32,187 nucleotides of DNA from an uncultured Alphaproteobacteria bacterium (GTDB taxonomy: Bacteria; Pseudomonadota; Alphaproteobacteria; Geminicoccales; Geminicoccaceae). This document shows positions 24,159 to 26,353 of the stretch, one piece after another. Each line of letters begins with the position of its first letter. The first letter of the stretch is position 1. The position numbers and the translations under genes are program-made. The stretch spans positions 6,245-38,431 of the forward strand of contig CADEGR010000018.1 in NCBI GenBank assembly GCA_902826935.1, read 5' to 3'. The notes beneath the pieces are model-generated. The model saw nothing but the letters and a program-made list of their open reading frames with translations, did not search any database and was not told the origin of the DNA.

Positions 24159-25754
<1,596 letters not shown>

Positions 25755-25808: not shown

Positions 25809-25909
25809 CCCCTGAACACGCCTGCCAACCCTTGGGCTGACCGGCTGCTGCGCTCAGGGGCAGCTAAGTCGAAGCTCCGCAAGAAGCAGGGCGTGGCCGA
25901 AGGTCAGCC
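25809..25909 (-). promoter_or_regulatory. Inverted repeats in the leuA leader
   Basis: Two perfect inverted repeats compete for the leader RNA. CCCCTGA at the leader stop (25854-25860) can pair with TCAGGGG (25809-25815). GGCTGACC inside the leader frame (25902-25909) can pair with GGTCAGCC (25835-25842), which lies in the loop of the first. Such nested pairings suit an attenuation switch, but no T-run follows, so an intrinsic terminator is not evident. Confidence 0.4.
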
Positions 25910-25961
25910 GGTGATCGCACCGGCTCAGCCGTGACAGCATGGCAAGATCGCCCCGCTTCAT
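25854..25961 (-). CDS. Candidate leucine leader peptide (leuL-like)
   Basis: A 35-codon frame lies between the leuA promoter and leuA. It starts at ATG 25961 with GGAG 5 nt upstream. Nine of 35 residues are leucine. The end reads ALLLAELRLSCP, with codons CTG CTT CTT GCG GAG CTT CGA CTT. CTT is uncommon in the surrounding genes, where CTG and CTC dominate. Runs of rare Leu codons are the hallmark of leucine attenuator peptides such as E. coli leuL. The stop codon lies within a stem-forming sequence, and the leuA start follows 100 bp later. I infer that ribosome stalling at these codons when leucyl-tRNA is short controls leuA. The frame is too short for coding statistics to confirm it. Confidence 0.6.
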   Translation of the reverse strand: MKRGDLAMLSRLSRCDHRLTFGHALLLAELRLSCP

Positions 25962-26032
25962 GACGGCTCCGACAGGGCGGGTTCGCCCTTCTCCTTCAAC
26001 CAGCAAGGCCGCCAGAGCGGCCGACCGCCTAA

Positions 26033-26062
26033 ATTAGAAACCGATCATCAGCGCTTTGTAAA
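26033..26062 (-). promoter_or_regulatory. Candidate leuA promoter
   Basis: On the minus strand TTTACA (26057-26062) and TCTAAT (26033-26038) are each 5/6 matches to the sigma-70 boxes and lie 18 bp apart. The transcript would begin near 26026, giving a leader of about 270 nt before leuA. A GGCCGC-TCTG-GCGGCC hairpin (26007-26022) would sit at its 5' end. This leader length fits a regulated leader. Confidence 0.6.
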
Positions 26063-26113: not shown

Positions 26114-26353
26114 CTACCAGCGGTCGCGACCATGATGCCAGCCGCCACCACGGTGCCAGCCACGATGCCCGCGCCAGCCGCGGTCATGGCGCCAGTCGTC
26201 CCGATAGCCGTCGCGGTAGCCCTCGGCATAGCCAAACCGCCGGCCATGGTGGTCAGGCCCGTCCGGCACGATCACGCAGCCGGCGAGCAAAGGCAGCAGG
26301 GCCACCGCTGCCAGGCCAAGCGGGCGCAGCAGGCGGCGGGGGTCGAGCGACAT
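26114..26353 (-). CDS. Small His/Gly/Arg-rich lipoprotein
   Basis: A 79-residue protein with a signal peptide and lipobox (LLPLLAGC, Cys near 26). The mature part is about 50 residues and very unusual in composition: repeated GY-R/E units (FGYAEGYRDGYRDD) and then Trp, His, Gly and Arg (RGWRGHRGWHRGGGWHHG). Histidine-rich tails can bind metal, but this is only inference. The ATG at 26353 was preferred to the upstream in-frame start (26380) because GGAGGAGG lies in front of it. It lies between the universal stress gene and the leuA promoter. I know no named family. Confidence 0.72.
   Translation of the reverse strand: MSLDPRRLLRPLGLAAVALLPLLAGCVIVPDGPDHHGRRFGYAEGYRDGYRDDWRHDRGWRGHRGWHRGGGWHHGRDRW

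Follow-up and report, generated by a model that had tools for sequence, protein, structure and literature searches.

The leuA locus and its upstream region

The window, by which we mean the whole stretch of 32,187 nucleotides that was analyzed, carries on its minus strand a gene for 2-isopropylmalate synthase, leuA. A promoter-like pair of hexamers lies upstream of this gene, and a short leucine-rich reading frame is located between the two. We presume that leuA is the gene regulated by the element described here. The features of this region are as follows:

26062-26057, minus strand: hexamer TTTACA resembling a -35 element, read directly
26038-26033, minus strand: hexamer TCTAAT resembling a -10 element, read directly, with an 18-bp spacer to TTTACA
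25961-25854, minus strand: leader peptide frame of 35 codons plus TGA (25856-25854), reading MKRGDLAMLSRLSRCDHRLTFGHALLLAELRLSCP up to the stop
25863..25874, minus strand: control-codon core CTT CGA CTT AGC, within which CGACTTA (25871-25865) is invariant among the version A leaders defined below
24159..25754, minus strand: leuA, 2-isopropylmalate synthase (TIGR00973 / NF002087), start at 25754, presumed regulated gene

The hexamers and their 18-bp spacing read as the first-pass annotation of this DNA had claimed, and the upstream hexamer recurs in related loci: almost every leuA locus of the family has TTTACA or CTTTACA some 180-220 nt 5' of the leader stop, and the equivalents of the -10 element in relatives are CATAT- or TCTAT-like hexamers at a spacing similar to that in the window. 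A promoter and terminator scan of the window did not call this promoter. The same scan found no terminator-like site in the window, which bears out the earlier statement that a T-run terminator is lacking, and no Rfam family matches the leader and hairpin element. Further upstream of the promoter lies another small frame (26114-26353, minus strand), whose product begins MSLDPRRLLRPLGLAAVALLPLLAGC, continues into a tail rich in Gly, Arg and His, and resembles a small lipoprotein.

The leader frame extends from the ATG at 25961 to the TGA at 25854, as previously annotated, and its product ends in LLLAELRLSCP. Its start is uncertain, because the eighth codon (25940) is also ATG, has a better Shine-Dalgarno score and would give a leader of 28 codons. 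Nine residues are leucine, five encoded by CTT and four by CTG, in agreement with the annotation. CTT had also been noted as uncommon in neighboring genes, and indeed makes up 2.2% of Leu codons in the genes of the window, such that at least five occurrences among nine codons has a probability of 6e-7. CGA accounts for 1.8% of Arg codons in these genes. The Leu content of the window's leader, taken alone, is mildly unusual (P = 0.016).

Conservation of the leader and its hairpin

We compared leuA upstream regions of relatives and of the class, and found a leader block of the form CTT CGA CTT ANN NNN CCC TGA, followed by a hairpin. By the criteria of our script, a leader is present in 103 of 147 sampled alphaproteobacterial leuA upstream regions. 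These comprise 69 leaders of version A, which have CGACTTA, and 34 of version B, which typically have CTTCTCCTTA; two of the latter (L134 and L150) look spurious and were dropped, leaving 101. In interpreting the statistics that follow, it is important to consider that version A leaders were admitted by an exact match to CGACTTA, with pairing not used as a criterion, and that version B leaders had to pair at 8 or more of the 9 stem positions and were to some extent selected for Leu. A conserved, short, Leu-rich frame 5' of leuA, as the first-pass annotation had anticipated, is thus found in relatives together with its stop and hairpin, and relatives that share the promoter have retained both the frame and its Leu codons.

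The hairpin, which we call P2, and a second repeat overlapping it are located as follows:

25860-25852, minus strand: 5' strand of P2, CCCCTGAGC, containing the leader stop codon
25817-25809, minus strand: 3' strand of P2, GTTCAGGGG, pairing with CCCCTGAGC over 9 bp, counting G-U
25909-25902 / 25842-25835: 8-bp repeat, GGCTGACC / GGTCAGCC

The stop codon does lie within an inverted repeat, as had been noted, but the stem is 9 bp long when G-U pairs are counted, rather than 7 bp. In an alignment of 47 sequences, 8 of the 9 P2 pairs exhibit changes on both sides, so the compensatory changes sought in the repeat at the stop are present. Overall, 97.4% of cells pair, and 30 cells are changed on both sides versus 6.9 in shuffles. 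When the partner strand is slid by one column, pairing falls to 55-60%. A second count, in which the 3' arm was anchored by sequence consensus rather than by pairing, yielded 34 double-changed cells versus 5.8. A 5-nt spacer separates the last Leu codon from P2, both in the window and in its homologues.

The 8-bp repeat is likewise present, but it had been described as nested with the hairpin and instead crosses it, because its second half sits in the P2 loop. The idea that this repeat is a conserved switch arm, or forms a pseudoknot, has at most weak cross-genome support (own versus swapped partners, z = -2.0), and the repeat is not the relevant partner. The second pairing that is supported involves the Leu codons and the leuA Shine-Dalgarno region, and is discussed below.

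The reading frame itself appears to be selected. In version A leaders, we considered the ten codons from -6 to -15, which were unused for selection. Leu makes up 34.5% of these codons in frame 0, which is free of stops, versus 8.1% and 3.4% in the other two. Version B frame statistics are alike, though the entry rule partly selected for Leu. AT-rich genomes have short, clean leader frames, e.g., MQKHSTHQALLALRLTIA and a stop in L029, and Gluconobacter leaders read MTFLSILSLRLIGP up to the stop. The position of the stop is kept while its letters change: TGA is commonest, TAG occurs in L114, L117, L120 and L132, TAA occurs in L085 and L110, and sphingomonad-type genomes have CCT TAA or CCT TAG at the leader's end. 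These swaps are matched by changes in the 3' arm of the hairpin. In L043, L053, L312 and L314, the stop within P2 is lost, now being TGG, and the hairpin is kept via G-U pairs, which means that translation would run through the hairpin. Leu enrichment that is specific to frame 0, together with a stop that is kept through three triplets with compensation, is sensible only if the frame is translated.

Distribution across genomes

A scan of 85,000 species genomes with an exact pattern that includes both hairpin arms identified at least 80 loci. Among the matches listed, 78 of 80 loci immediately precede leuA, in the same orientation, and the other two reach contig ends; those listed matches whose record name gives a class or genus all belong to Alphaproteobacteria. 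As a control, the reversed pattern was found in 2 of 385 genomes, versus 48 for the real pattern. A second exact match in one genome (G368) was considered as a leader of another gene, but has no adjoining leuA and no hairpin-leader context, and we took it to be a chance match; every other locus tested in this respect belongs to leuA.

We also built a covariance model, R1, from the leader and hairpin block, using only sequences from Alphaproteobacteria. Its match in the window is the sole site in that genome:

25807..25880, minus strand: R1 match, E-value 8.3e-10

R1 finds one site per genome in 70 of 299 genomes of the phylum, and all 70 are in the same class. Among 20 sites that we fetched, all precede a LeuA gene, and 9 of these genes encode a non-orthologous LeuA (KYRPFP...LPDRQWP type) that is approximately 26% identical to the LeuA of the window. 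This type of LeuA is preceded by a CGACTTA leader in the sphingomonad-type loci L308-L313, L322, L326 and L327, mostly with a TAA or TAG stop within CCCTTAAGG/CCTTAAGGG or CCCTTAGGC/GCCTAAGGG. The leader therefore tracks the function of the enzyme across non-orthologous proteins, which is strong evidence of a role in leucine control.

Outside of these sets, we looked for the leader at Streptomyces plasmid copies of leuA and in Pantoea, and did not find it. Short frames containing Leu occur at leuA in Burkholderia, Cupriavidus, Acinetobacter and Gemmatirosa, for which we make no claim of a leader; the frame in Gemmatirosa (L344, Gemmatimonadota) contains AVLLLTSA (CTCCTCCTTACCAGC), which resembles the leader core. 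Two plasmid-borne leuA genes of the KYRPF type, from Rhizobium and Shinella (L341 and L343), have leaders containing LRL(T/S) and CGACTTA, with hairpins of the GGTCGCCGGG type after them. These two leaders are intermediate between the alphaproteobacterial form and the actinobacterial form described below.

Pairing of the Leu codons with the leuA Shine-Dalgarno region

Folding of the window and its relatives suggested a second pairing, P1:

25886-25877, minus strand: 5' strand of P1, CTTCTTGCGG, formed by leader Leu codons
25776-25766, minus strand: 3' strand of P1, CCGCCAAGAAG (CCGC-C-AAGAAG), overlapping the leuA Shine-Dalgarno sequence, with one bulged C
25771-25763, minus strand: leuA Shine-Dalgarno sequence, AAGAAGGGA

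In unconstrained minimum-energy folds of the window and of its nearest relative, P1 encloses P2. This relative (L002) has a perfect 9-bp P1 partner, CGCAAGAAGG, with CTTCTTGCG facing CGCAAGAAG without a bulge. P1 in the window is modest alone, and its longest unbroken helix does not exceed chance expectation. Across genomes, pairs between a leader and its own Shine-Dalgarno region are stronger than those with swapped partners (z = -11.8), a comparison that shared base composition could inflate. A shuffle test is unaffected by this issue: against dinucleotide shuffles of the Shine-Dalgarno region, the mean z is -1.35, versus -0.16 and -0.02 for two control regions, and individual genomes reach z < -2 in only 25% of cases. 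Partition-function folding gave downstream pairing of 0.6-0.8 for leader positions -23 to -12, versus 0.40-0.58 in chimeras (p = 1.6e-6). These results support a complementarity beyond chance between the Leu-codon stretch and the leuA Shine-Dalgarno region, although this evidence is statistical and weaker than that for the hairpin.

We also predicted the accessibility of the Shine-Dalgarno sequence. In the window, the predicted value is 0.36 without a ribosome; it rises to 0.44-0.64 when a ribosome footprint masks the Leu codons, and is 0.36-0.41 for a ribosome at the stop. Averaged over genomes, the predicted effect of the footprint is small (0.05-0.10).

Proposed mechanism and alternatives

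The first-pass annotation's central proposal, that a leucine leader peptide controls leuA, is strongly supported by the conserved frame, Leu codons, stop and hairpin with its compensatory changes. We propose that the element is a leader-peptide attenuator that senses leucine, with translation of leuA as its most likely target, and assign this reading a probability of roughly 0.68 on the basis of the comparative analysis. When leucine is plentiful, ribosomes would pass the Leu codons, open P2, terminate at the UGA and depart, after which P2 and P1 would form and the leuA Shine-Dalgarno sequence would be hidden. If charged Leu-tRNA runs short, a ribosome would instead stall at the CUU codons, its entry channel up against P2; by covering the 5' strand of P1, the stalled ribosome would leave the Shine-Dalgarno sequence free, and LeuA would be made. 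The direction of this regulation, i.e., that leucine shortage turns leuA on, we infer from the logic of the arrangement. With a CUU codon in the A site, P2 would begin approximately 11 nt from the P-site, and ribosomes unwind mRNA at approximately this distance. We infer that P2 could also act as a brake on the ribosome at the sensing codon. Several observations weigh against this mechanism: P1 reaches z < -2 in only a quarter of genomes and is bulged in the window, the average footprint effect is small, a few leaders lack the stop, and CGACTTA is constrained by more than P1, as described below.

Earlier annotation had left the choice between Rho and translation as the means of switching. The support for P1 pairing with the Shine-Dalgarno region favors translation, and we retain Rho within a rival explanation. 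In this rival, leucine is again sensed by the leader, but transcription ends prematurely, either through Rho in the stretch before leuA or at P2, unless a stalled ribosome prevents it. A leader followed by a hairpin matches the classical plan of attenuation, and Rho is favored by long untranslated stretches. However, a T-run after P2 is absent in nearly all homologues, which, like the lack of a terminator-like site in the window, argues against intrinsic termination, and a pure terminator would have no need of an above-chance pairing with the Shine-Dalgarno region. We regard control of transcription as unlikely, albeit worth keeping in mind. One AT-rich homologue, L029, has P2 (GCTTAAGCG/CGCTTGAGC) followed by ATTTTTAT, and its lineage may use transcription termination.

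A separate question is raised by CGACTTA, which does not vary at any base in version A, including in the sphingomonad-type loci, which were found by R1 and not by exact match. We considered whether downstream pairing explains this invariance, and rejected this idea: the complement, TAAGTC, is found downstream in 2 of 54 cases, or 7 of 54 with wobble, and is not conserved. Since the bases are conserved and their complement is not, CGACTTA must be subject to a constraint beyond P1. A +1 frameshift at CTTA that fuses the leader to leuA was also discarded, as the distance from CGACTTA to leuA occurs in all three phases among relatives. The rare CGA and CTT codons fit a sensor, which leaves the fixed A that follows them unexplained.

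Invariance beyond the needs of pairing, in a segment between the stems, is what would be expected if the RNA were a switch recognized by a protein or small molecule that binds to a site made up of P1, P2 and CGACUUA, with the frame being incidental. A protein-binding model was in fact put forward for the actinobacterial LEU element, as described in the report on that element (PMC1262725). However, an incidental frame does not account for Leu enrichment in frame 0 only, with varied codons, nor for a stop kept via three triplets with compensation, and we consider such a switch improbable. Least probable is nascent-peptide arrest, in which the conserved L-R-L-x-x-P-stop would stall the ribosome on leucine itself rather than on uncharged tRNA: the short conserved C-terminus, with R-L nearly invariant in version A, has a Pro-stop ending that recalls TnaC-type arrest, but Pro is lost where the hairpin sequence differs (LRLTIA in L029, LRLTWF in L007), residue -2 is free, version B has L in place of R, and conservation is at the level of bases, including wobble positions and the next base.

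Comparison with known systems

Leader-peptide attenuators generally carry an excess of codons for the amino acid whose supply they regulate, and the leader frame does so too. In the leuL attenuator of gammaproteobacteria (RF00512), which inspired the initial annotation, a leader with Leu codons before leuA also senses leucine via stalled ribosomes. However, the window has no Rfam match and lacks a terminator hairpin with a T-run, P2 contains the end of its leader, and the partner of its Leu codons is the leuA Shine-Dalgarno region. The leuL attenuator thus shares the principle of the window's leader, but not its parts; the leader-peptide logic assumed in the annotation stands, and the closest relative lies elsewhere. 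The ilvB-II motif, or ilvBNC uORF, of Corynebacterium (PMC10272879) resembles our element in its conserved uORF rich in branched-chain residues, its hairpins and its occurrence once per genome. It differs in having a terminator and antiterminator, in controlling ilvB and in its mixed Ile, Leu and Val codons (PMC10272879).

The control logic is therefore familiar, but the alphaproteobacterial version appears to be undescribed. We found no description of it in literature on alphaproteobacterial motifs, Sinorhizobium meliloti small proteins and bacterial uORF motifs, although a mention in Vitreschak et al. 2004 is possible. An RNA element missing from Rfam appears to control leucine synthesis in a major class, with named examples in Gluconobacter, Asaia, Tistrella, Skermanella, Methylobacterium, Phaeobacter and Sphingomonas.

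Among known systems, the LEU element of Actinobacteria (Seliverstov et al. 2005) is closest to ours; it has the same logic and, in the sequences we compared, the same 5-nt spacing. According to that report (PMC1262725), a short frame has a run of Leu codons that pairs with the leuA Shine-Dalgarno region, further helices lie between, a pseudoknot and an alternative fold are described, and protein binding is favored. The same report cites work on Streptomyces coelicolor leuA, in which leader mutations reportedly had some effect, inconsistent with classical attenuation; this result counts against our reading of the window as a leader-peptide attenuator. The window's leader is a frame with a Leu run upstream of leuA, as in the LEU element. 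Pairing of this run with the Shine-Dalgarno region holds for the set of homologues, with P1 of the window being bulged and modest alone. For the conserved pseudoknot inside the base stem, the one topology examined here, the P2 loop with the upstream leader, gives z = -2.0. Because the LEU element is known from Actinobacteria, and window-type matches with a named class are from Alphaproteobacteria, we file our element as LEU-element-like and not as a member.

We obtained actinobacterial leuA loci (Nocardia, Tsukamurella, Nonomuraea and Microbacterium) from plasmid-collection records. As in the window, all four have 5 nt between the last Leu codon and a hairpin, and the leaders end in LLL(G/S)(C/R)R plus a few residues. 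In Microbacterium, the hairpin is CCGCGACGAG...CTCGTCGCGG, and codons CTTCTTC face GAAGAAG before leuA. The actinobacterial hairpins are of a CCGCGRCG type with the stop in the loop, in contrast to the window's hairpin, which has its stop in the stem. In an 8-kb search, R1 scores two of the four loci at E-values of 0.0011 and 0.0016, which hints at a common origin with the alphaproteobacterial leader but does not prove it.

Whether translation of the leader matters was a question raised for the LEU element in 2005; stop swaps and frame-specific Leu say that the frame is selected in the present element, and the rigid spacing between control codons and hairpin hints at how the ribosome is placed to sense scarce tRNA. 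A broader proposal, which we advance tentatively and with the odds somewhat against it, is that Alphaproteobacteria, Actinobacteria and perhaps other bacteria share one leucine-sensing translational leader of fixed geometry. This leader would consist of rare CUU codons, 5 nt, a hairpin at the ribosome's entry channel and Leu codons that mask the leuA Shine-Dalgarno sequence. The hairpin would serve as a mechanical brake that sharpens the reading of hungry codons, CGA-CUU-A would be a codon-level sensor, and the module would follow leuA function across non-orthologous enzymes.
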